A stretch of 52,071 nucleotides of DNA from a virus, in IMG/VR virus record IMGVR_UViG_3300030329_003799, positions 1-52,071 of that record, one strand, 5' to 3'. Every line of letters begins with the position of its first letter. Position 1 is the stretch's first letter. A program made the position numbers and the translations under genes. This document shows positions 1-52,071 of this stretch, piece by piece. The notes under the pieces are model-generated. The model saw only the letters and a list, made by a program, of their open reading frames with translations, was not told the origin of the DNA and made no database searches.

Positions 1-634
1 ATTCAATAATTCCAAAACTTTTATTATAACCAAATAATTCTTCTTGTTCTTGGTTTTTCTTGGAATAATGCATTCTACCATATGATGTGCTATGCGTAAT
101 ACTCTTTATTTGACTGCATAGAGCTTTAACTTCTTTGTTAACTTTTTCATCAGGCATAAATTTAGGTGCATTTATAATATTTAATTCGATATCTTCATGT
201 GCTACTATCGGATCCCATACATTTATTCTAAATTTATACTCTTCTCTTAAGTTAACCACTAATGACATTGATATTTTCCCGTCAGAGAATTCATCAATAG
301 CCGTTAGATCTGTTCCACTCCAGAATGCTGCCATAGTATGATGTGAATGCCACCACAGAAACTGTAAGTCTCGTTTGTCTTTATGTTTCATTGCAGTTTT
401 CACATAATACTCTGCTAATGCTTCTTTGTCGAGTATTGTATTACCTCCTGATATCTCTTGCTTTAAGATTACAGGCTCTTCTATAATATATACATCATCA
501 TCATCTTCATCTTTTACTTTATGAACTATTGCCATACCACCTATTTCACATTTAAACTGATTATAAGCTGATGCAGCATAGTCTATAATTGTCTTCCAAT
601 TACTATGTTGTATATATATTTCTTTATTATCCAT
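1..634 (-). CDS. JAMM/MPN+ metalloprotease (JAB domain), 3' end cut by window edge
   Basis: This open frame starts at the ATG at 634 and has no stop before position 1, so at least 211 residues are visible and the C-terminus lies outside. It carries a complete JAMM zinc-protease signature: Glu30 in CEIGG, then His95-Ser-His97, seven residues, Ser105, two residues, Asp108 (WWHSHHTMAAFWSGTD). This is the E...HxH(x7)Sxx D pattern of deubiquitinases and of proteases that trim Ub-like precursors. A strong ribosome site (GGGGGAGG) lies five bases before the ATG, inside the end of the E2-like gene, which it overlaps by 8 bases. Its place after Ub-like and E2-like genes argues for trimming or removing the modifier. 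Lambda-K-type tail proteases share the fold, but the neighbours do not fit that role. Zinc binding and catalysis are inferred from the residues. A fused domain further downstream cannot be excluded. Confidence 0.85.
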   Translation of the reverse strand, partial: MDNKEIYIQHSNWKTIIDYAASAYNQFKCEIGGMAIVHKVKDEDDDDVYIIEEPVILKQEISGGNTILDKEALAEYYVKTAMKHKDKRDLQFLWWHSHHTMAAFWSGTDLTAIDEFSDGKISMSLVVNLREEYKFRINVWDPIVAHEDIELNIINAPKFMPDEKVNKEVKALCSQIKSITHSTSYGRMHYSKKNQEQEELFGYNKSFGIIE

Positions 635-2075
635 TCAATCCTCCCCCTCGGGCTGTTTGTGCCCAAGCTTGCATTTGTTTAATAATAACCTTCTGTTCGT
701 CAGTTAATTCAGATTGTTCTAACTCTTGAGATTTTAGCTCTGCATAATATCGGCAATTATCTCTTAACTGACATTTAATTCCTTCACATACTTGTTTAAT
801 AGCACTATTTACTTCTTCTGTTGCTAATAAACCTTCGGGATCTACTGTTCTTGATATTCTATTAAAACAATGAGTAACATCTTGCCCTACTGAAGATACA
901 TAAAACTTATCATATCCTTTGGGCATCCCAAAATGAGAGTATTGTATTCTATTTAAAGGATTTGTATGGCCTACACTATATGATGTAGCCCATTTTTGAA
1001 AGTGTAATACTAACGATGCTATATCTAATCTTGCTGCACTCGTTGTCATTTCACTATCTAAATCTCCTAAACATACACCTCTCCATTCACCTGAGTTTCT
1101 TTCTCCTCTGCTTGATACATAGGGATGTGTAAAGCCATATTTACTTTCAATCATAGCTCTTCTATCTACAAGTTGTTTAACTCTTCTATTGTTGTAATGA
1201 TAACCGTAGGTTCCTGTAGGTACTATTTCATGCAATGGAGTTCCTTGCATTTTATTAAGAAGCCTATTAAGATTTACTTGAAACTGTAATGATAGTCCTT
1301 CAAATGGAATTTTAGCGACTTCTCTTTCATCACTATCAGTAACATTTATATTAAAATCTTTCATATATAATGTTATAGATATATAATGTTTATCAAAGAA
1401 ATTATAAAAATCTCCATATTCATCATCACATTGAGTATATTCTTTATAGTGTTCCCAATCTATTTGATGGACATAATCCCCATAATATTCATGAGCATCT
1501 TCTTCATATCTAGAGATATCTATATACAATTGTATTGGAAGAGTTTTAAATTTAGTTAATATTTGCAACTCTGCGTTTATTTTATCTCTGACTGTTTGTA
1601 ATGCATCTAATATTAATTGTGGATCTTCTAGCCAAACCATACCTTCAGCTCTTTTTTCTCTTAAATCATTATCCATGCGCACTATATCATCTTTTAAATT
1701 ATTGCGCCAATATCCATGGTCATTAATTTTATCAAATATTCTATGTACAGCACATGTAGGATTTTTGTCCCATCCAGCCCATTTCTTAAGTCTATGTGCT
1801 AATTGAGCCTTATATCCTGGTGACCATCTAAAGGTTTTAGTAAATTTCAAATCCATTCTATACCGTTGATTAATATGACCTAGCTTTTCTAATAATGGCC
1901 CTTGAGGCCCTATATGTATGTATTCTAGTAATTTATCAACATCTGGATTATATAAGTCTTTGAAATTATCCTCTACCTTTATTGCGTGTTCTTTTGGTTT
2001 TGGTTCGCTAAGAGAGAGGCCTAATTGCTCGACCTCTCTGAACACCTTAGCTTGTGACGGTGAACTACTGTCCAC
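627..2075 (-). CDS. putative E2-like (UBC-fold) conjugating protein, 482 aa
   Basis: A 482-residue protein whose C-terminal half shows an E2-like core. Strand-rich segments (about 180-290) are followed by THPYV at 316-320, a short loop, then RGVCLGDL at 332-339 with Cys335 as candidate catalytic cysteine, then a helix (345-365) and NPLN. This order matches the HPN...G-x-C-L arrangement of ubiquitin-conjugating enzymes and the prokaryotic E2-like families. The N-terminal 170 residues are mostly helical and not recognised. A second Cys/His patch (402-441) is near the C-terminus. The start is a GTG at 2075 that overlaps the end of the Ub-like gene by 11 bases, so translation is probably coupled. 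It overlaps the protease gene by 8 bases. Context (Ub-like, E2, JAMM) is the main support. The E2 call rests on short motifs and could fail a fold prediction. Confidence 0.55.
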   Translation of the reverse strand: MDSSSPSQAKVFREVEQLGLSLSEPKPKEHAIKVEDNFKDLYNPDVDKLLEYIHIGPQGPLLEKLGHINQRYRMDLKFTKTFRWSPGYKAQLAHRLKKWAGWDKNPTCAVHRIFDKINDHGYWRNNLKDDIVRMDNDLREKRAEGMVWLEDPQLILDALQTVRDKINAELQILTKFKTLPIQLYIDISRYEEDAHEYYGDYVHQIDWEHYKEYTQCDDEYGDFYNFFDKHYISITLYMKDFNINVTDSDEREVAKIPFEGLSLQFQVNLNRLLNKMQGTPLHEIVPTGTYGYHYNNRRVKQLVDRRAMIESKYGFTHPYVSSRGERNSGEWRGVCLGDLDSEMTTSAARLDIASLVLHFQKWATSYSVGHTNPLNRIQYSHFGMPKGYDKFYVSSVGQDVTHCFNRISRTVDPEGLLATEEVNSAIKQVCEGIKCQLRDNCRYYAELKSQELEQSELTDEQKVIIKQMQAWAQTARGGGLNG

Positions 2076-2271
2076 CTGTCTTATTGTTTGTAACTGTTGC
2101 TACAAAATCGCCATCACTTATAGGATCATTATCGCTAGCTATTGTACCATTAACATTTATTACTGCTGTTGATGGTAAAGATAACTCTGATCTAAGTGCA
2201 CTAACTGTTGCGCTATTAACGCTTGCATCACTAAATGATGCACTGTTATTCATTAACTTTATGGCTGCCAT
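2065..2271 (-). CDS. ubiquitin-like beta-grasp protein (ThiS/MoaD-like), C-terminal Gly-Gly-Gln
   Basis: A 68-residue protein with the layout of ThiS/MoaD/ubiquitin-type beta-grasp proteins: strand 1 (AAIKLM), a second strand, helix (TVSALRSELSL, 22-32), strand VINVNG (38-42), then ISDGDFVATV (51-60) and a flexible tail ending Gly66-Gly67-Gln68. The VNG...DGDFV spacing is characteristic of ThiS-like carriers. A terminal Gln after Gly-Gly means the carrier would need trimming, and a JAMM protease is encoded two genes downstream. The ATG at 2271 has an AAGGAG site seven bases upstream. The stop overlaps the GTG of the E2-like gene. It could instead be a sulfur carrier, but the E2-like neighbour favours conjugation. 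The GGQ ending is also seen in Pup, but Pup is disordered and helical, unlike this strand-rich protein. Confidence 0.62.
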   Translation of the reverse strand: MAAIKLMNNSASFSDASVNSATVSALRSELSLPSTAVINVNGTIASDNDPISDGDFVATVTNNKTGGQ

Positions 2272-2326
2272 TTATCATTCTCCTTATTTTAATGACTGGT
2301 TATAAAAAAAATCTGTATAATTTCGT

Positions 2327-37348: not shown

Positions 37349-40300
37349 ATGGGCTTCATCTCGGGGGAAAAAGACTATTTTGATGAGTCTGCTTTTAAAC
37401 CTTCTTGGTCAGAACAAGACACACAAAGAAGAGTTCAGGCGTATTATGTCGCCCCACATACATTTCCACAAGCACAATTAGACGTATTGCATTCCCATGC
37501 AAATCATTATGGTATACAAATAGATGAAAATAGAGTTACTGCACATGATGATGAAATTAAATTTAAAAGATTATTACAGAAACTTGGCAGTGGTTTCTTA
37601 TCAGGCTTTACTACATTCGAAGTAGGCGATGAACCCCGAAATGATGCAGAAGCCATTGCCAACTCTTTAGGTCATTTAGCTGGATTTGTTGGCTTTATAC
37701 CTACTGCTCCATTAAAAGCATTAAATGCTACTAAAATGGTTAGCGCTGCTCAAGCTCTTAGAGGAAAATCTGTTCCAATGCTTGCAGCATCTCAATTACA
37801 GAAAGCTGTAACTCCTGTTAGCAAAAAGATATTAGACAATGCTATGAACATGAGATCTAAAGCTGTAGCAGATGCTGCTAATTTCTTAAATAAAGATGTG
37901 CCTTCACATATGATTGAAGGAGCTTTTCATTTAGGAACTGCATCAGCTGTAGGAGCATGGCAACAAGGTATAGATGGGATGATTCAAGCTGGAGTACATG
38001 GTGGTGTTATGGGTGGAGCATTTAGAGGGATAGCTAATATGATCAATAAAGGTGGAGCTAGAACTTTAGTAAGAACTGTTGAAAAAGACCATTTAGGTAG
38101 ACCTAAGCCTGCTAAACAAGTATTAACATTAGACCAAAAACAAGATAGAGCATTAAGAGGACTGGCTGGTTCGTTATTTGATGGGCTACCTTCTACATTA
38201 AGAGGCGATACTACTGCTCAACAGGTGTATCATTATTTACTAGGTGCTTATTTTGGAGCACAAGAAACTACTGCTGTTGAAATGGGCAGAAATAAATTCC
38301 TACAAAAAATGGAAAAATCTAACTCAGAAACAATAAGAAATGCTCAAAAAGTAGGCATGGAAAAAGGTTATAAAGGTGAAAGACTTCAGAAGTTTATAAT
38401 GAAAGAAACTTCAAATGATCTTAATTATGTGCCAGAGCTCACAAAAGGATGGGGCAAGTTATCAGAAAGAGTACAAGAATCTGTTAAAGAAGAAGCTGCA
38501 AATCTATGGGGATACAAATCAGATAGTAGAACCGCAGGTTATAAAATGCTTGAGGATATATTAGGCGAAGATGATGCTAAATCATTTATAGACGATTTAG
38601 AAATGCCTGTTGAAGAAGGTTTTACTGATACAGGCAAATTAAAACATGGAGCTAGATTAGTAATTCCTATGAAAGGCCAAGAGCATAAATATGTAATGGG
38701 GTCTGGTGGAGCTATCGGTTCTGATGCTAAATGGGCAGAAATTGGCCTTAGATATGGAGTTGACAACGTTGTGCATTATTCTTTTAAAGGACATAAAACA
38801 GCACCTAAATTAAAAGGAGATGTATATAAACTAAATGATAAAGCATTAGCTGAGGGCAATATAGCTGTAGAAAAGGCTAGTAAAAGACTAGGTAAAACAA
38901 CAGGTAGAAAAAAATATACTCTAGATTTACTTAGAAGAAATTATCATCAAGTAGTACATTCTGATGGAGTGTTTGCTATAGGCAGTATTGTTAGAAAAGG
39001 TAAAAGAGGTAAAAAAGATCCTCCTATTAACGAAGTAAGAGGTGGTACAGGTTGGGCTATAGCAATGGCTAAAGATATGCAAGGTAGAGAAATACATGTA
39101 TGGGATACCGTTGATAAAGGATGGCATAAATGGAATAGGTCTAAAAGAATTTGGGAAAAAGAAAAAGCTCCTAAATTAACTCCTGACTTTGCAGGTATTG
39201 GCAGTAGAGGAGTTCTAAAAGGAAAGAATTATATAATGCCAAAAGGTGCTGAAGAAGCCATAGAAGATGTGTATAAAGCGACTTTTGGAGAGCCAATAGA
39301 GAAATCTAAGGCCGAAAAAGCTAAAATTAAGGCAGAAAAAGAAAAAATAGTATCAGCAGTAGGGGGAGAAAAAAACGACGCTGAAAAGCACAAAATTATA
39401 AAAGAAGAGAATTTAGGAGAACCTAGTTTACAAGATATATTAGCAAGTGGAAGTGTAGAAGGGCCTGATGTTAAACCACTTAAAAAGTCTAAAAAAGGAG
39501 AAGATGTTAGCGTTAAAGGTCAACTTGATGACTCAAAGCAAACATCAGCTACTCCAGTATCAAACAGAACAGTTAGTTATGTTAAAAGAGAATTAGCAGG
39601 TATTCACTTAGATGATACTGCTAAGATACATAAGATGGCTAAAAAACTTGATAAGATTTTAGATAAAGCCTCTAGTTCTAAATTAAAAGATGGCTTGAGT
39701 TATAAAATAGAAGATTCTATGGATATAGTCAAAAAAGGAATGGATAGAGAATGGGGTATTACTTTAAAAGATAGTAAACTACTTGAAATGAAACAGCAAT
39801 TATTTTTACGTAATGCTGGAGTCCAGGTTCCTCACTTTACTGTCACAAACGGGAAGATATCTGATAAGCCTATAGCTTCTAAAAATTTAGCTCAAAATGA
39901 TAAAAGACAAAGAGCTCCTGAAATGTGGATTTCTCATGTGTGGCAAAGTCATGGTAAGTCGGGCCATGGCTATGCCATACTTGATCATTTTGTTGAAGGT
40001 CAAAATGGTAGATTTAGAGAATATTCTTTTGGTCAACAAAAAGAAAGATTAAAAGATAAAACTAAGAGTGATGACGCATGGAATAAAACATTAGCTGATA
40101 TATATGAAAAAATGTTTACTAATCATAATATGTATGCATATGGAGGTCGTGGTGATGCAGAAAGAATGTATTTTGTAAAAGTACACCCAAAAGTTCCAGT
40201 TAGAAAAATTCACGTTGATAAAATGTTAGAAGAAATACCAGAATTTAAATTAGATAATATGCCTACTTGGGTTAAGAAGTATGCTACTAAAAGCTTACTT

Positions 40301-43300
40301 ACAGCACAAGGTAAAACACTTAAACCTAAAATGGAAATGCGATATAAAAAAATGATTATATCAAATGCTTTATATGAAGCTGAGATGAATGGCTTTACTC
40401 CCGACGTAGCAGGTATTAAAAAATTACTAGCAATGAAAGATCGTGTTGGTATGAAAAAAGGTGTAATTGATTGGAATAAAAGACAGCAAATATGGTTCAC
40501 TAATGGCTATTCAGCTGATCGTGCTTTCTTTTTAAAGAACAAAAAAAGATTTAAACTGGGTGAATTAAAAGACAGTCAATTTAAATACATGTTGTTTGAA
40601 GACGCTTCTGAAAAAGGATTAAATGCTAAATCCTTAGCTAGAAAATATACTGAAGCAACTGATGGAGCTATATTAGCAGAAGAAGGTTTTGTTGATGCAT
40701 TAAATGAAAGTTTTGGTATGCCTGAATCTGGTCAAAATAAATCTTTTATAGTATCTCCCCATTCAGAACATGGTGCTTTATTAGGTAAATTTATGTTCCA
40801 TAAAGTGACACCTGAAGCTTCTAAATGGATGAGAAAACAAGGTATACACATGTTAATACCTCGTTCAGCTGCAAAACAATCAGGTAATAGAGACTATTTT
40901 GATTTATTCTCTGCTTCTAAAGCTTATAAAGAACCTAGATTTACTATAGGTGGTAAAAAAGCAAATCCTCAAGAAACAGATATGATATATGGTATGGATA
41001 TAGCACATATTAAAGGTTCTTTATCTGAAAAAGATACTGAACACCAATTACAAAATCAAAGACTTCCAAAGCAAATGCTGACAAATTTAACAGCTTATAA
41101 TTTTGCTACTAAAGGTGATCCTAAACTAGAAGCTAAATACCAAAAGTCTTTAGATAGGATGTTTGAAGAAATAATAGGAGAAAATTTCAGAGGTTCTAAA
41201 CCTTTTAACTCTAAATTACAAGATTTAATGGATAATTATGGTGATTTAAAACCTAAAGAAAGAGCTAAGAAAGTTGAGTTTCTTCTTAACAATATAGATA
41301 AAATAGGTGTTGACCAATTATTAAAAGCAATAAAAACTCCATATGCTCAAGAGTTTACTACTAAAGCGTATAGAAAGATAGTCAAGAAAACTGATGAAAT
41401 CATTATGGATAAAATTAATGATGGAGAATTGACTCAAAAAGAAGGGGCTGAATATTATCAGGAGTCTGCTAGTTTCAAAACATTAATGGATAGACTATTA
41501 GCATTAGAAGGGCAAATGGGGGGAGATACTACTCCTATATGGTTCCATAAATTTGTTAGAGATTTTAGAATGCAAGCTATGAGAAATTTTGTAGTATATC
41601 AAGTAACTAGGCCATCAATGCCTAATAGTATATCAGGTAGAATGAGACCATATGATCCATGGCTACGTGCAGATAAGAACATGAAAAGATTAGATAAAGA
41701 TGATAGTATATTCTTTTTAGATGATATGTACAGACATATGAAAATACAAGTTCCTAAAGATGTGTTTGTTGGAGAAAAAGCTCCTAGAACATTAGGTAAG
41801 TTGTGGGATAAATATCAAGAAATGAAAGATAATAAACAATTAGTTGGAAAGAAATTTGAAGATTTTCTACATGCTGTTGTTGTTCGTGTTCCTATGGACT
41901 CTTTATCAGGCGCACATGATTTAAAATTCGCAGGATTTACTGGTATTAATGGTAAAGGTATATTATTACATCCAAGAACTATGCAAGCATTAGGTGGTGC
42001 TGATTTAGATGGTGATAAAGCTTTTGCTTTCTTTGGTATGCCTAAAAGTTATAGAGATATGTATGGTAAAAACAAATATGAATTTTCTAGTACTGGTGAT
42101 GCAAAAGGAATAATCAAAGATAATAAAGAAGATTTTAGAGATATTCTTACTCGTAATAATCCAGAAGAAATGAAAGTATTTCAAGAACAAAGTGCAGTTT
42201 GGGACCCTATGTTAAGAGAAGATATATCTATGAGAGCTGCAGATGGACGTGCTAGATTAGGTCCAGCTGTTATAAATAGACAAGCAGCTATTGCAATGCA
42301 CGCATCACTTTCTGGTTCTAAACAGTCTGAAACAGTACCTTTTACTATGACTATAAATAAAAAGAAACATACTTTTGATATAGAAATATCTCCTAAGACA
42401 GATGCAAAAGAATTAGCTTATGCTAGGGAGCTTATGAGAGCTAGCATAGCATTTCCTTCTGACCCCTTAGATGAAGCTGGTCTTAAAAGTAAAGCTCATT
42501 TTCAATGGAAAGTATTTGAGTCTTTATTTAATGTAAAAATTCCTAAAGATATGGAAAAGGCATTAGGTAAAAAGAAAATGAAAGATTTTTTAAAAGGTAC
42601 AGATAAAAAAGATCCTGGTATTTACAAACTTGCTAGTAAATCATTAATGGGGACTTTAAAAAGAATGAATTCTGCATACTATGGTAGAAACTGGGATACA
42701 GGAAGAAGATGGTATTTCCCTGAGATACAAGAGATGGCAGAACCTATTTATACAGATTTTTCTCCAGAAATGATTAATACTATGATGCCTAAAATGGTAC
42801 AAGAATTAGGTAAAGTAGATTGGAGTGATAATGTATTTGCAAGAATAGATAAAAAAGGATTAAAAGATTTATATGGGCAATGGGACATAAAAAGAAAAGA
42901 TATAGATTGGCTTAAAAAACAATTAGGAAGAACGTCATTCAAGGTCAAGTATACTCCAGTTGTTAAGAACACTATTAAAGAACAATTATATCTTCCCGAG
43001 AAGAGGAACGCGGCTGTTGAATCTGTAGCAGCTTTTAGAAGAGCAGTCGCGAATACTCATTTTCCCATGAGAAAAGGATTTGAAAAAGATTTAAAAGAAG
43101 AATCATATAGAAGAGATGTCATAGAAGAATTATATACATTAAGCCAAGATGCTATAGTTAGAGATATGACTGATATTACTACCTTTGAAATGTTAAGAGA
43201 TTATATTAAAGCTAGTAAGATACCAAGAAGAAATGTAGTACATTTATCTAAATTTGCACAACAAGCTAGAAGACAATACACATTAGATTTTAAATCTCGT

Positions 43301-46300
43301 AAAAAAATACAAGAAGCTGATATGTTTGAAGAAAAAGAAACATCATTCGAAGATCAGCTATTAACAGATGAGTATATTAAAAACTTTAAATTAGGTAAAG
43401 GTAAGGATGGAAAAGGAACTAATGTTTTGAAACGTCCTTTAACTCCTGATGAGCAAGACATATTAGATATAATGTTAATAGGTTCTGCTGATAGATTTAA
43501 ATTAGATGAAATTAATAAATACGAATCTGAAAATTGGGGTAATTTAAGTAAACACGAAAAGAATATTATAGCTCAAGAAAGATATAAAGCTGCTGGAACA
43601 TCTTTAAATAGAGCAGGTTTTAACAGTGAGTCTGTTAATGATAAAATTATATTAGATTTAATGAACAGATATAATGAAAAGTTAATTACAACTTATGAGC
43701 CTCCTAAGAAATTAGCAGAAGCTACTAAAGAAAATAATAAAGCTGCTGATGAACCATTAAAGATGAAGGTTTCTGATAGTGAAGGTAAAGAAGCAGAAGT
43801 GGAAATAGATACCAATCATTATAGTGGTTTTGAGAAATTAAACAGAGGTGAAATAAAAGACGCAGAATTGAGAGATTTAGTTGATATGTTAGCTGATAAT
43901 ATTAATCATTATAAATCTAGATTTGGTGACAATTCAAAAGATATAGCTGAAAACATTAATTTACTTACAAGAGGATTAGTTGGTAAAGATTTAGCAGCAA
44001 TGAATAAAGAAGATTATCGTGTGATGAATAGATACTTTAATGATTTACGTTCAGGTACCTGGTATATGAGAAACATAGTGCCTAAGCTAAAACAAAAAGG
44101 AATCATTCCTAAAAGAGCTCATATGCAGTTTCCTTTAACTTCCAATAAAGAAAGAATGATGGAAGATATAGTATTATCGTACGAACAAGGGTACTTTCAA
44201 AACTATGATGGTACTGGTAAAATAGGTAAAATGGCTAAACCTACACATTACTTAGAAAGAATGCAATTCTTTACGGGAACATCTGTTGATTTAGCAACAA
44301 GGTATGATGATTTGCAAAAACAAGAACTTAGAGATGAACTACTTAAAGAAACAGGTTATGAATCTATTCCTGAAGGTGAAAGATTATATGAAATAGCAGT
44401 TGCATTAAGAGAGCAGCCTATGATCAATGAAATTGCTAGTAAGAAAAGAGGAGATGCTTATGATAGTGTTTTAAATTATAGAATAAAACAATATCAAGAT
44501 AGTATAACAGATTCTTTAACTAAAAACAAATGGGATGATTTAAAAGACAGGAAATTTAAAGTATCTTTAGGAGCTAAAGATAAGAATATGACTGGTCAGC
44601 AAATCGTTGATAATATAAATAAAGTTATAACTAAAAGAAATGAAAAGATACACACAGAATGGATTTCTAAAAATAAAAAGAATTTAGCTAAATATCAAAT
44701 AGGACATCATGACGAGGGTGGTTTAATTCCTAAATATGATATTGTAAAATTCACTAAACACATATCTAATCTATATAAAAAAGGTGAACCTGTAGATATG
44801 AACGAATTTGGCCTTGATGGTCTTAGAGAAATCTCTAGAAGTATGATGCTTCAATCTCCTGATACTAATAGCAAGTTAGCTAAAGCTATATTAAAACAAG
44901 ACGTAAGTCAAACTGGGCAAATGGATTTTAGTGTTTACTTCCCTCATGCTCATATGGACAATAAAGCTGCATTACAATCTCTTAAAAGAGGTTTAGATTT
45001 TATAGAAAAATCAGAATTAACTCCTACTGAAAAAGCCGCTGAAAAGAAAAAAATGTTAATAAGAACTAAAACATTAACAGGGGATTGGTTACCTCATGAT
45101 ATGATAGAATATCAAGCATTTGATGGTGCTTTAAGAGAAATAGCTAAAGGTAAAGATGGTGATTGGATGAAATGGTTTAACAGTAATCCTAGAACAGGTA
45201 ATATGATGTCTCGTAATAATCATATAGGAGGTTGGGCTAAAGATCCTGGTGTTTATGAAATATATCAAAACAATCTTATTAAAACTTATTATAGACAACT
45301 AGCTCAAATAATGAACAGAGCTACTATTGAAGAGTTTGAAATTAATAATCTTGGATTTAAAGGTAAAGAACATGTAGAAGCATGGAAGAATTTCTATAGA
45401 TTATACGCACAAGATGCTATGGGGTTCCCTAATAATATTCCTCGACATTTTTTAAATAAAGATAGTGGAATGAATATAGCAGGTACTCCTTATGCTTGGT
45501 GGGCAGATAGTAATGTTAAACGTATTGTAAATAATGTAAGAAAAAAATTAGGTATTAAAGAAGATTTAAGACTTCCTGAAGAATTAAGAGGAGTTGATGT
45601 AAGTCACATAAGACATTGGTCAAATGTAGAAGCCAGATATCAAATGGCAACGTTGTTAGCGCATCCTAAATCAGCAATAGCCAATATATATGGTGGTACA
45701 TTACATACAGTACAATCAGTAGGTTGGAGAAATTGGAGAAATTCTCGTAATGTAGAGTATCTAAGGACTAATCTTCCTGGAGAAGCTAAGAATTGGCTAG
45801 ATAAAGGCGATATGACTAAATGGGCAGTTAAACATGGTGTTGTTCCAGATTTTATATTATATGAAGCAGGATTAAATCCACAATTTAGAACTGGTAGATG
45901 GAAGGCATTTGTAGATGATGCTATGTCTTTATTTAATAAAGATCCTCATGTTAAAGACCATACTCTTATAAGTTTAGCTAAAAAGCATAAAATTACAGAG
46001 AATGCATTTCATAAAGCAGCTTGGTTCATGCGAGAACCTGAGCGCGCATTACGTCGTGATGCTTTTATATCTCACTATTTACAAGCTAGAGAGAATATTG
46101 GTAATGCAGAAATGCCTTTAGATCATCCGTTTCTTATAGAACAAGCTAAGAAAGGTGTTAAAGCAACACAATTCTTATATTCAGCTCCATATAGACCTCC
46201 TTTTTCACGTTCTGCATTGGGAAAAGTTATGACACGTTTCCAATTGTGGGCATGGAATGCTGTTAGGTTTAGGAAAGATGTAATCGCTGAAGCTGAGAAA

Positions 46301-46774
46301 CATGGATGGCGTCCTGGTACTCCTGAATTTGAAAGATTTAAGAGAACTATGACTACTGATATGTTTGTGTTAGGTATGTCCAATATCTTTGCATACTCTA
46401 TATTTGAAAATGCTTTACCTGCTCCTTGGAATTGGTTCCAAGATACAGCAGATTGGTTATTTGGAGATGAGAAAGCAAGAGACAGAGCATTCTTCGGGGC
46501 TTATCCAACTCAAATTGCACCACTCCAAGTGATTACACCTCCTATAGCAAGGATTGGCCCCGCTACTTTTAGCGCAATGGTTAATAATGATTATTCTAGA
46601 CTGTCTGAATATTATATATGGACTATGTTTCCATTTGGAAGGTTAGCTAGAGATGTTAAAAATAGCATAGAGAATCCTATCAGAACAATAGAAAACTTTA
46701 CAGGGATACCTTATGGTCAATTCCATAGAGAAATGAAGTCAATTCAAAAGGAAGATGATGAGCCAACAGAATAG
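37349..46774 (+). CDS. giant virion protein: SLOG domain plus two-barrel RNA polymerase (crAss/QDE-1-like), 3141 aa
   Basis: ATG after AGGAGG. Residues about 445-645 form a SLOG/YspA-like Rossmann unit (GSGGAIGSDAKWAEIGLRYG at 451-470; GGTGWAIAMA; FAGIGSRG at 614-621). Residues about 1140-1800 carry a two-barrel RNA polymerase signature. First come LIPRSAAKQSGNR (1169-1181) and RMRPYDPW. Next is RVPMDSLSG (1513-1521), then GKGILLHP (1535-1542) and the catalytic triad A-D1552-L-D1554-G-D1556. Downstream are GPAVINRQAA (1638) and YARELMRASIAFP (1691-1703), like motifs of RdRP/QDE-1 and crAss-like virion polymerases. The C-terminus (about 2900-3141) has amphipathic and hydrophobic helices (RPPFSRSALGKVMTRFQLWA), probably for ejection. 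Likely a virion-packaged transcriptase. Confidence 0.8.
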   Translation: MGFISGEKDYFDESAFKPSWSEQDTQRRVQAYYVAPHTFPQAQLDVLHSHANHYGIQIDENRVTAHDDEIKFKRLLQKLGSGFLSGFTTFEVGDEPRNDAEAIANSLGHLAGFVGFIPTAPLKALNATKMVSAAQALRGKSVPMLAASQLQKAVTPVSKKILDNAMNMRSKAVADAANFLNKDVPSHMIEGAFHLGTASAVGAWQQGIDGMIQAGVHGGVMGGAFRGIANMINKGGARTLVRTVEKDHLGRPKPAKQVLTLDQKQDRALRGLAGSLFDGLPSTLRGDTTAQQVYHYLLGAYFGAQETTAVEMGRNKFLQKMEKSNSETIRNAQKVGMEKGYKGERLQKFIMKETSNDLNYVPELTKGWGKLSERVQESVKEEAANLWGYKSDSRTAGYKMLEDILGEDDAKSFIDDLEMPVEEGFTDTGKLKHGARLVIPMKGQEHKYVMGSGGAIGSDAKWAEIGLRYGVDNVVHYSFKGHKTAPKLKGDVYKLNDKALAEGNIAVEKASKRLGKTTGRKKYTLDLLRRNYHQVVHSDGVFAIGSIVRKGKRGKKDPPINEVRGGTGWAIAMAKDMQGREIHVWDTVDKGWHKWNRSKRIWEKEKAPKLTPDFAGIGSRGVLKGKNYIMPKGAEEAIEDVYKATFGEPIEKSKAEKAKIKAEKEKIVSAVGGEKNDAEKHKIIKEENLGEPSLQDILASGSVEGPDVKPLKKSKKGEDVSVKGQLDDSKQTSATPVSNRTVSYVKRELAGIHLDDTAKIHKMAKKLDKILDKASSSKLKDGLSYKIEDSMDIVKKGMDREWGITLKDSKLLEMKQQLFLRNAGVQVPHFTVTNGKISDKPIASKNLAQNDKRQRAPEMWISHVWQSHGKSGHGYAILDHFVEGQNGRFREYSFGQQKERLKDKTKSDDAWNKTLADIYEKMFTNHNMYAYGGRGDAERMYFVKVHPKVPVRKIHVDKMLEEIPEFKLDNMPTWVKKYATKSLLTAQGKTLKPKMEMRYKKMIISNALYEAEMNGFTPDVAGIKKLLAMKDRVGMKKGVIDWNKRQQIWFTNGYSADRAFFLKNKKRFKLGELKDSQFKYMLFEDASEKGLNAKSLARKYTEATDGAILAEEGFVDALNESFGMPESGQNKSFIVSPHSEHGALLGKFMFHKVTPEASKWMRKQGIHMLIPRSAAKQSGNRDYFDLFSASKAYKEPRFTIGGKKANPQETDMIYGMDIAHIKGSLSEKDTEHQLQNQRLPKQMLTNLTAYNFATKGDPKLEAKYQKSLDRMFEEIIGENFRGSKPFNSKLQDLMDNYGDLKPKERAKKVEFLLNNIDKIGVDQLLKAIKTPYAQEFTTKAYRKIVKKTDEIIMDKINDGELTQKEGAEYYQESASFKTLMDRLLALEGQMGGDTTPIWFHKFVRDFRMQAMRNFVVYQVTRPSMPNSISGRMRPYDPWLRADKNMKRLDKDDSIFFLDDMYRHMKIQVPKDVFVGEKAPRTLGKLWDKYQEMKDNKQLVGKKFEDFLHAVVVRVPMDSLSGAHDLKFAGFTGINGKGILLHPRTMQALGGADLDGDKAFAFFGMPKSYRDMYGKNKYEFSSTGDAKGIIKDNKEDFRDILTRNNPEEMKVFQEQSAVWDPMLREDISMRAADGRARLGPAVINRQAAIAMHASLSGSKQSETVPFTMTINKKKHTFDIEISPKTDAKELAYARELMRASIAFPSDPLDEAGLKSKAHFQWKVFESLFNVKIPKDMEKALGKKKMKDFLKGTDKKDPGIYKLASKSLMGTLKRMNSAYYGRNWDTGRRWYFPEIQEMAEPIYTDFSPEMINTMMPKMVQELGKVDWSDNVFARIDKKGLKDLYGQWDIKRKDIDWLKKQLGRTSFKVKYTPVVKNTIKEQLYLPEKRNAAVESVAAFRRAVANTHFPMRKGFEKDLKEESYRRDVIEELYTLSQDAIVRDMTDITTFEMLRDYIKASKIPRRNVVHLSKFAQQARRQYTLDFKSRKKIQEADMFEEKETSFEDQLLTDEYIKNFKLGKGKDGKGTNVLKRPLTPDEQDILDIMLIGSADRFKLDEINKYESENWGNLSKHEKNIIAQERYKAAGTSLNRAGFNSESVNDKIILDLMNRYNEKLITTYEPPKKLAEATKENNKAADEPLKMKVSDSEGKEAEVEIDTNHYSGFEKLNRGEIKDAELRDLVDMLADNINHYKSRFGDNSKDIAENINLLTRGLVGKDLAAMNKEDYRVMNRYFNDLRSGTWYMRNIVPKLKQKGIIPKRAHMQFPLTSNKERMMEDIVLSYEQGYFQNYDGTGKIGKMAKPTHYLERMQFFTGTSVDLATRYDDLQKQELRDELLKETGYESIPEGERLYEIAVALREQPMINEIASKKRGDAYDSVLNYRIKQYQDSITDSLTKNKWDDLKDRKFKVSLGAKDKNMTGQQIVDNINKVITKRNEKIHTEWISKNKKNLAKYQIGHHDEGGLIPKYDIVKFTKHISNLYKKGEPVDMNEFGLDGLREISRSMMLQSPDTNSKLAKAILKQDVSQTGQMDFSVYFPHAHMDNKAALQSLKRGLDFIEKSELTPTEKAAEKKKMLIRTKTLTGDWLPHDMIEYQAFDGALREIAKGKDGDWMKWFNSNPRTGNMMSRNNHIGGWAKDPGVYEIYQNNLIKTYYRQLAQIMNRATIEEFEINNLGFKGKEHVEAWKNFYRLYAQDAMGFPNNIPRHFLNKDSGMNIAGTPYAWWADSNVKRIVNNVRKKLGIKEDLRLPEELRGVDVSHIRHWSNVEARYQMATLLAHPKSAIANIYGGTLHTVQSVGWRNWRNSRNVEYLRTNLPGEAKNWLDKGDMTKWAVKHGVVPDFILYEAGLNPQFRTGRWKAFVDDAMSLFNKDPHVKDHTLISLAKKHKITENAFHKAAWFMREPERALRRDAFISHYLQARENIGNAEMPLDHPFLIEQAKKGVKATQFLYSAPYRPPFSRSALGKVMTRFQLWAWNAVRFRKDVIAEAEKHGWRPGTPEFERFKRTMTTDMFVLGMSNIFAYSIFENALPAPWNWFQDTADWLFGDEKARDRAFFGAYPTQIAPLQVITPPIARIGPATFSAMVNNDYSRLSEYYIWTMFPFGRLARDVKNSIENPIRTIENFTGIPYGQFHREMKSIQKEDDEPTE

Positions 46775-50430: not shown

Positions 50431-50990
50431 TATGATCTCCTAACTCTTTTAACCTTTTTAATTGAGAAGCCTGCTATACCCATTCCATTTTCTGCGGCTT
50501 CAATTACAGCTTTTCTGGCGCCTTTCTTATCGACTTCTATCTTAGCTCTTTTATATGCATTAGGGATTGCCTCTTCGTCTATTACCTCGATAGGCCCCCA
50601 TGTTTCATATAATTTATATTTAGCTGTATCAGTCTTAAATACGCCATCGTTTCCTGCAGTTTCTATAATCATAGGTATTAATTCTTTATTAAAATAGTCT
50701 TCAGTCTTTTTGATTGATTTCTTTTTATTTCTCAATCTTGCAACTTCAGTAGTTAATGATGCTATTTCTGCATCAATTAAACTAGATTGTCTCCCCATTT
50801 CTACCATAAAGTAATCAATACCATCTGTTTTATTAGCTATTTGTTTCTTAACAGCTATTATTTTTTGTTCTACGTCAGCAATTGATACTTGAGCATCTAA
50901 GTCTTGAGCATTATTTTCATAATATTCCAAGTCTTGCTCTAAATCAATTAACATGCCTATTAGATCACGCGTCGTCAATTTCTGACTCAT
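50430..50990 (-). CDS. Gp157-like single-strand annealing/recombination accessory protein, 186 aa
   Basis: Long coiled coil in the first 110 residues, then the family-like ending YKLYETWGPIEVIDEEAIPN (126-145), AYKRAKIEVDKKGARKAVIE and GIAGFSIKK. That match to phage Gp157 proteins is clear. They are found beside helicase and recombination genes and are thought to help replication or recombination. Overlaps the helicase gene by 26 bases. Confidence 0.8.
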   Translation of the reverse strand: MSQKLTTRDLIGMLIDLEQDLEYYENNAQDLDAQVSIADVEQKIIAVKKQIANKTDGIDYFMVEMGRQSSLIDAEIASLTTEVARLRNKKKSIKKTEDYFNKELIPMIIETAGNDGVFKTDTAKYKLYETWGPIEVIDEEAIPNAYKRAKIEVDKKGARKAVIEAAENGMGIAGFSIKKVKRVRRS

Positions 50991-52071
50991 GAACCCTCCT
51001 TAATCTAAATGATGGAGTCCATCTAACTTCTGTTTCAAATAGTTCTCCATCTGTATTTTTAAGTAAACTTATGGTCTTCATGTCTTCTTTAGCTTGACCA
51101 TTTATACCTATAACTTTCCTGGATGCATTTTCTATAGCTCCAGAACCTTTACCAGCATATAAATCTAATACTTGACTACGACTATATTCTCTTGATACTT
51201 GAGATACTTGAATTATTATTATATCTCTATTAACTGCAAGAGATGATAAATTATGTGAGATGTATTTAATTTTCTCATACTCTCCTTGATATTGTCGTGG
51301 TGTTTCTACTAAATCTATATAGTCTACAACTACTAATGCTGGTTGTAATTCAGTTATCTTTTGTTCTATTAGTTTAACAGTAGGAGGTGATTCTTGTACA
51401 ACTAAATGCTGTAATAAATCATGATTAGATTCATATAGAGATTCATAATTCTCTTTTACGTAATCTTTATCGCATCCTGATACTATTTGTAGTGATCTTC
51501 TATGTAGATAAGATGCACTAAGTTCTAATGATAGATATAATGTGGGTACCTGGTATTTAGGTTCTATTGTATTACCAGCAAAATCATAACCTAATACTAT
51601 ATTATGTGCTAATGTAGTCTTATTTGACCCTGTTGGCCCAAATATAGTTACTAGTTCTCCAGGTAATATCTCACATTCTTCATCTATCCCTAACATACTT
51701 GATAATTGAATAGACCTTCCACTATAATCTGTTGTCATTCTTTCATGTAAAGCTTCTTGCATATCTGTAGCAGTCTTAACATCTACAATTAAGTCTTTTC
51801 TTTTATAATGTATACATCTAGGATTACAATGTTTATGCATTATAGCATCATTACATCCATATTGTACTCCACTATTATAAACATATTCTACTTTTTCTAT
51901 TACTTGGTCTTCATCTAACATATTATTATTCCAATGTAATAGTGCTGCTTTACATGCTGCTGAATTAATACCGTTTCTTTTATAATGAGATGCTATTCTT
52001 AATATAGTATTATTTCTACTTCCTTCTTGTGGTCCTACATTATACATTCTTTGTACACAAGTAACTATATT
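50965..52071 (-). CDS. primase-helicase (PriCT-like plus DnaB-type ATPase), 5' part outside window
   Basis: The frame is open through the right edge (CVQRMYNVGPQEGSRNN), so the ATG at 52047 is internal and the N-terminus (probably a primase) is missing. From the edge: PriCT-like helical region, Cys/His cluster C65, C74, C78 (numbering from that ATG), then a RecA-fold ATPase with P-loop GPTGSNKTT (137-145) and Walker B LVVVDYIDLV, followed by IIIIQVSQVSREYSR and GSGAIENASRKV of DnaB-like replicative helicases. Unwinds DNA at the phage fork. Confidence 0.88.
   Translation of the reverse strand, partial: NIVTCVQRMYNVGPQEGSRNNTILRIASHYKRNGINSAACKAALLHWNNNMLDEDQVIEKVEYVYNSGVQYGCNDAIMHKHCNPRCIHYKRKDLIVDVKTATDMQEALHERMTTDYSGRSIQLSSMLGIDEECEILPGELVTIFGPTGSNKTTLAHNIVLGYDFAGNTIEPKYQVPTLYLSLELSASYLHRRSLQIVSGCDKDYVKENYESLYESNHDLLQHLVVQESPPTVKLIEQKITELQPALVVVDYIDLVETPRQYQGEYEKIKYISHNLSSLAVNRDIIIIQVSQVSREYSRSQVLDLYAGKGSGAIENASRKVIGINGQAKEDMKTISLLKNTDGELFETEVRWTPSFRLRRVHESEIDDA

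Follow-up and report, generated by a model that had tools for sequence, protein, structure and literature searches.

A widespread marine phage family carries what is probably its own protein-tagging kit, consisting of a tag, an activating enzyme, a probable transfer enzyme and a tag-cutting protease. The window, by which we mean the whole stretch of DNA that was analysed, is an entire IMG/VR record, linear and 52,071 bases long, with no sequence left of position 1, and the genes for a ubiquitin-like protein (Ubl), an E2-like protein and a JAMM protease are confirmed to be present on the minus strand of its positions 1-2271. In our estimate there are about three chances in four that the locus encodes a phage pathway of Ubl conjugation and deconjugation, arranged as one translationally coupled operon with replication genes. 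In bacteria, Ubl-conjugation operons are chiefly known for antiphage defence or from plasmids and integrative elements, and a full set beside the replication genes of abundant phages reverses these roles, as the virus would here do the tagging. The features concerned are these:

2065..2271, minus strand: Ubl gene, 68 aa, beta-grasp, C-terminus NKTGG-Q
2071..2076, minus strand: codons of Gly66-Gly67; cleavage is predicted directly after them and would remove Gln68
2280..2285, minus strand: AAGGAG, Shine-Dalgarno-like, ahead of the Ubl start codon, as read in the sequence
627..2075, minus strand: E2-like gene, 482 aa, GTG start
1116..1127, minus strand: HPYV motif, residues 317-320, standing where E2 enzymes have their HPN flap
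1071..1073, minus strand: Cys335, predicted catalytic thioester cysteine, from alignment A1
640..648, minus strand: AGGGGGAGG, the Shine-Dalgarno of the JAMM gene, likewise a sequence reading
2..634, minus strand: JAMM/MPN+ protease gene, cut by the left end of the contig (211 of about 300 aa)
50965..52071, minus strand: primase/DnaB-like helicase (Pfam DnaB_C 2e-15, PriCT_1), its 5' part cut by the right end of the contig

The sequence-only reading had described three overlapping minus-strand genes in the order Ubl, E2-like and JAMM, and this description is borne out (2271-2065, 2075-627 and 634-2). The E2-like gene opens with a GTG that falls within the Ubl gene's Gly-Gly codons, the ATG of the JAMM gene precedes the stop codon of the 482-codon gene, and AGGGGGAGG doubles as the code for the C-terminal glycine run of the E2-like protein; with such overlaps, the three genes would form a translationally coupled operon. 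That glycine run was considered as a second Ubl tail and rejected, since it results from translation of the Shine-Dalgarno that serves the JAMM gene. The arrangement is beyond chance, because the same gene order, for which a search of related phages had been proposed, was found in dozens of divergent phage contigs and the catalytic residues are invariant.

These contigs came from an IMG/VR search with the JAMM protein as query, which was the productive one: it returned 258 related loci, of which the best 80 were kept, and open reading frames were called and clustered in the relatives before profile searches over 91 fetched loci. The recurrent order is Ubl, E2-like, JAMM, E1, a recombinase (ERF or AAA_24), an SSB-like gene and a primase/helicase. 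All four cassette genes are present in 48 of the 91 loci, many fetched loci ending inside the cassette; the remainder hold E1, JAMM and E2 (21 loci), E1 and JAMM (18) or other combinations (4). A few loci deviate, either by an extra inserted gene or by a swap of Ubl and E2 (L099). Between E2-like and JAMM, several relatives carry a gene of 289 codons that has a radical-SAM-like CxxxCxYC motif (L128:9050-9919 and similar). G015 and G016 (terminase 70-71% identical) show Ubl-E2-JAMM-E1-AAA24-SSB-helicase, with the helicase 3' of E1 on the same strand. The cassette had been thought to sit beside structural genes, which does not hold, as relatives place it directly before the recombinase, SSB-like and helicase genes; given this order, and given that the right end of the window is the same helicase, we assign the cassette to the replication genes.

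Among the long cassette-bearing records searched, a TerL like that of the window is present in 27 of 27, and E1 in the same 27. When TerL-bearing contigs of at least 40 kb are considered, E1 and JAMM are found in 11 of 14; two of the other three (G005 and G009) stop short of the region, and G011 has no cassette at the syntenic place, its AAA24, SSB and helicase genes being present with no cassette in the expected 5 kb. Since G011 truly lacks it, which counts against the pathway, the idea of a cassette strictly universal in the family was rejected: it is near-core but losable, and not strictly essential in the family. At L194:18637-20000 and in L195 (G011), what stands in the place of E1 is a gene unrelated to it, at least 246 codons long, together with many small genes. 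The records behind L120 (104,488 b) and L145 (85,245 b) hold two terminase genes each and are possibly chimeric or joined contigs.

The proposal that this phage carries a Ub-like conjugation cassette gains support from the predicted E1 partner, which adjoins JAMM in relatives as a gene of about 217-225 codons that overlaps or abuts the JAMM stop; its product, of about 214-225 aa, is one ThiF domain (Pfam ThiF, 2e-18 and 2e-20). An E1/ThiF gene had been expected left of position 1, where the record ends, but the side was correctly foreseen, E1 lying directly 3' of JAMM in relatives. In comparison with G015, the right and left ends of the window flank one spot with about 3.1 kb absent between them, and the window's own E1 probably belongs in this gap; an exact 24-base probe from the left end of the window found no overlapping contig that carries it. 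The E1 family profile matches UBA6, UBA5, Cap2 and BubCD, and R5, D46, D48, N54, K69, D109, C168, K171 and T173 are present in 61 of 61 sequences, so that the residues that bind the nucleotide are invariant along with C168. By eye, C168 aligns with what we take to be the catalytic cysteine position of UBA5. The arginine of what is presumably the NxxRQ motif of MoeB/ThiF is absent from the phage E1, which has V57-S58 there, and this counts against the pathway. A genome scan, which needs exact short peptides, found no cellular E1 orthologue and only distant ThiF proteins, and for lack of such an orthologue we assign no host.

The 68-aa protein had been taken for a beta-grasp protein, and both its AF2 model (pLDDT 85, bb-a-bb order) and Foldseek confirm this, the best matches being ThiS-like Mth1743, Caldiarchaeum ubiquitin, ThiS and MoaD; Pfam ThiS is matched at E 3e-4, slightly under the cut-off. 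Alignment and model make it a single domain of about 65 residues. K64, G66 and G67 are invariant in a 40-sequence alignment, [DNS]K.GG is found in 50 of 50 Ubls (49 related ones and that of the window), and what follows the GG is unconserved and 0-60 residues long (nothing, Q, K, DQ, KGK, WTYYIIR and others). A conserved GG with a free-running tail reads as the signature of a trimmed precursor, and JAMM would be the obvious trimmer; the trimming step that had been predicted from the Gln after Gly-Gly is thus strongly implied, KxGG being conserved and the tails variable. At L101:674-1111 and L114:6010-6447, Ubls with a 60-residue extension past the GG resemble a fusion to another domain.

The JAMM protein, which has 211 aa in the window versus about 280-320 aa in relatives because the contig end cuts its gene, matches Pfam Prok-JAB at 4e-4, and its family profile matches the deubiquitinase Rpn11 of Caldiarchaeum (E 4e-6). 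Its motif residues are E30, H96, H98, S106 and D109; the motif and E30 had been read correctly, but the last four residues were off by one (H95, H97, S105 and D108). H96, H98, S106 and D109 are invariant (60/60), and E30 is present in 53 of the 60 sequences, the other seven having D or a gap in the alignment. An alternative would be a sulfur-carrier pathway, in which JAMM and E1 would make a Ubl thiocarboxylate for sulfur transfer to tRNA or cofactors and the 482-aa protein would be an acceptor or accessory. The closest structural relatives of the Ubl do include ThiS and MoaD, and E1 is small and of the single-domain ThiF type, every member matching the ThiF and MoeB models; however, the annotated conserved neighbours are replication genes, with no sulfurtransferase, rhodanese, ThiG, MoaE or TtuA recognised among them, and a coupled gene with an invariant cysteine and an HP..C.G motif lies between Ubl and JAMM. 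We give this pathway little credence.

For the 482-aa protein, a UBC fold may be deduced from its active-site motif, the predicted order of its elements and the position of its gene. Cys335 is the sole invariant column (58/58) of alignment A1, which comprises 58 E2-like sequences; P318 is present in 57 and G337 in 55 of them, and position 317 is H in 27, F in 25 and Y in 6, which gives the consensus [HFY]P[YF][IV]...C.G[DNS]. The AF2 model (pLDDT 78) has a helix at 152-174 and strands at 181-190, 229-246, 252-268 and 303-309, and in its C-terminal part HPYV (317-320), C335 and helices at 337-348 and 352-364; this modelled succession of a helix, four strands, HPYV, Cys and helices would be UBC-like, being the order of a UBC domain. 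The protein has no significant family in Pfam, PHROGs, NCBIfam or PADLOC, its profile comparison gave no E2 match, and its core, compared by hhalign with Prok-E2_B, PRTRC_B and three human E2s, showed no significant similarity to any of them; the short local alignments that score best (PRTRC_B and UBE2D3) fall on the cysteine motif and are suggestive only. A Foldseek search of the whole model against the PDB returned no UBC match. Thus, the first assignment of this protein as an E2 keeps its motif, element order and gene position but is without a match in the PDB fold search, and the lack of a UBC match by sequence or PDB fold counts against the pathway. In BFVD, Foldseek found similar folds in other phage proteins, including a 435-aa protein of crAss-like phage cr128_1 (probability 1.00, E 2e-3); in cr128_1, the gene immediately ahead of JAMM, two genes before E1, encodes exactly 435 aa. 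The tenth BFVD match, of 420 aa, has the length of the E2-position gene of FpV4/Fpv1.

It might also be that the 482-aa protein is a dedicated substrate or an E1-recruiting scaffold, modified directly by E1, as happens in the archaeal SAMP systems, which have no E2. Its large and variable N- and C-terminal parts, and the failure of both fold and profile searches to find a UBC match in the PDB, would agree with this; the invariant Cys, the conserved Pro upstream and the order of helix, four strands, Cys and helices nevertheless fit a transfer enzyme better, and a similar CxGN motif is present in PRTRC_B, which is recognised as an E2, so that we regard a substrate or scaffold as improbable. Median pairwise identity over 250 genome pairs is 19% for E2-like, 39% for JAMM and 53% for both E1 and the helicase, and 38% for Ubl (159 pairs). 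No other part of the cassette evolves nearly as fast or varies nearly as much as the E2-like protein, whose length ranges between 408 and 835 aa, and its fast change and variable length fit a protein that also picks the target. It evolves too fast for sequence searches, and an exact-peptide scan of IMG/VR and tblastn against phages and plasmids with the 482-aa protein accordingly gave no matches.

In the conjugation pathway that we favour, JAMM would trim the Ubl precursor to a C-terminal Gly-Gly, and E1, seen in relatives past the left end of the window, would adenylate the Ubl glycine and form a thioester, probably on Cys168. The Ubl would then pass to Cys335 of the E2-like protein and on to target proteins, probably to their lysines, and the same JAMM could strip it off again. 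The E2-like protein would probably also select the target, with no separate E3. The most likely use would be the marking of host proteins early in infection, for takeover or counter-defence, which we favour over a sporadic weapon given the early-operon position and the presence in most genomes. At somewhat short of even odds, we tentatively propose a phage-specific Ubl conjugation that marine podovirus-like and crAss-like phages inherited or passed between them, that most of these genomes retain in their replication module, and that tags host proteins in infection with the choice of target residing in a rapidly changing E2.

The prediction of prokaryotic operons that combine Ubl, E1, E2 and JAB dates from 2006 (Iyer et al., PMC1779556). 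The phage cassette is a phage-specific relative of the bacterial Ubl-conjugation operons and lies outside both PRTRC and BIL. It has the general features of Ubl conjugation, namely a beta-grasp Ubl with a C-terminal Gly-Gly, an adjoining E1 (in relatives) and the JAMM residues. We take class 6d of Iyer et al. to be PRTRC. Like that class, the cassette has a stand-alone Ubl ending in Gly and separate E2-like, JAB and E1 genes; PRTRC_B and the phage E2-like protein have a CxG[ND] motif in common. A PRTRC ThiF is among the nearest neighbours of the phage E1 clade in the tree (support 96/82), which, the branches being long, makes PRTRC only tentatively the closest relative. PRTRC_A is the best NCBIfam match of the phage JAMM (17.6 bits versus a cut-off of 101.8) and PRTRC_ThiF reaches 24.9 with the phage E1 against a cut-off of 144.75; no PRTRC model is over its cut-off, and the 482-aa protein is without any NCBIfam match. 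Unlike PRTRC, the cassette is carried by a phage within a replication module, no alpha-helical class 6d partner or ParB-related gene was recognised in it, and its E2-like protein keeps an HP-like flap without the conserved downstream His of class 6d.

The likeness to BIL lies in the four functions, their order Ubl-E2-JAMM-E1 and a Ubl precursor that needs trimming. According to PMC11354881, BilA comprises two Ubl domains, BilB is marked by a CEHH motif (Cys138, Glu144, His146, His151), and BilD has an inactive and an active adenylation domain with a Cys domain. In contrast, the phage Ubl has one domain, the E2-like protein has no CEHH (past Cys335 in the core alignment, E is not conserved at +6, nor is H at +8/+13), and the phage E1 is a single ThiF domain of about 217 aa; BilD was absent among the PADLOC matches listed for the marine E1s. 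The correspondence with BilABCD that was first suggested is thus true of the gene order but does not extend to the defining features of BIL. Bacterial BIL modifies phage structural proteins, and the cassette might be a weapon against competing phages (superinfection exclusion), given that its gene order equals BilA-B-C-D and that the E2-like protein diversifies fast, as expected if the targets are other phages. Its place with the replication genes and its presence in most informative genomes of the family are, however, unlike a sporadic defence island, and if virion proteins were tagged, the phage would have to exempt those of its own particles; such a weapon seems unlikely to us, and the marking of host proteins remains our preferred reading. 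CBASS Cap2/Cap3 and Bub have a related E1 domain and a JAB protease partner, but going by the PDB names E1 and E2 are fused in Cap2, and BubCD is likewise a fused protein, whereas the phage cassette consists of separate genes throughout, with no nucleotidyltransferase recognised among them.

The set extends beyond the marine family. With two phage E1s, tblastn found 75-82 phage records, nearly all of them Crassvirales and Flavobacterium phages, and the order Ubl-like, E2-position gene, JAMM and E1 is present in crAss001 (gp79-gp78-gp77-gp76), frurule, bajarodcaudo virus 1, cr128_1 and FpV4; the crAss-like and FpV4 cassettes are near primase and UDG genes. Their E1 (hhalign 99.9%) and JAMM (97.6%) are homologous to the marine ones over the catalytic parts, with the common motifs IDGR..AE..Q in E1 and HSH..M..F.SGTD in JAMM, and in the E1 tree the marine and crAss-like sequences form one clade (99/95), with one spurious long-branch cellular row inside. 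The Crassvirales, a different phage group, have an E1 with an N-terminal extension, unlike the marine E1. Since hhalign of the phage Ubls against the crAss Ubl-like proteins is weak (6.9%), Ubl homology between the two sets rests on gene position, and the crAss-like and FpV4 Ubls, unlike that of the window, have a long C-terminal extension. In Crassvirales (L168:3232-3909, L169:2448-3233 and L170:2568-3329), KKIKSGA replaces K.GG and is followed by this long extension; either trimming there leaves a single Gly at the end or these Ubls take no part in conjugation, and KSGA instead of KSGG counts against the pathway.

In the literature, from which most subscription papers were outside our coverage, we found no description of a phage-borne Ubl cassette, and an earlier mention is possible; the crAss genome papers and a Crassvirales review make no mention of ubiquitin. 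Annotation of the cassette genes of crAss001 and the Flavobacterium phages goes no further than 'thiamine biosynthesis', 'metalloprotease' or hypothetical, and one crAss-like record annotates an 'E1 enzyme family', so E1 alone was already recognised. As the order is present in cultured crAss001 and Flavobacterium phages, phage use of protein tagging is testable in the laboratory now, and a divergent E2-like family is added to the record of early ubiquitin evolution. In Fpv1, a group I intron (Rfam RF00028, E 3e-9, L171 4042-4287) and an HNH endonuclease gene split the JAMM gene (L171:3725-6017) directly ahead of HSH, that of FpV4 being uninterrupted; group I introns favour conserved, needed sites, and this one argues that the JAMM gene matters. 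Elsewhere in the window, on the plus strand at 37349-46774, where Pfam detected no polymerase-like site, a 3141-aa protein has LHPRTMQALGGADLDGDKAF near 42002, GGADLDGD being conserved in five relatives; this motif resembles the DxDGD site of two-barrel RNA polymerases such as the crAss001 virion polymerase.
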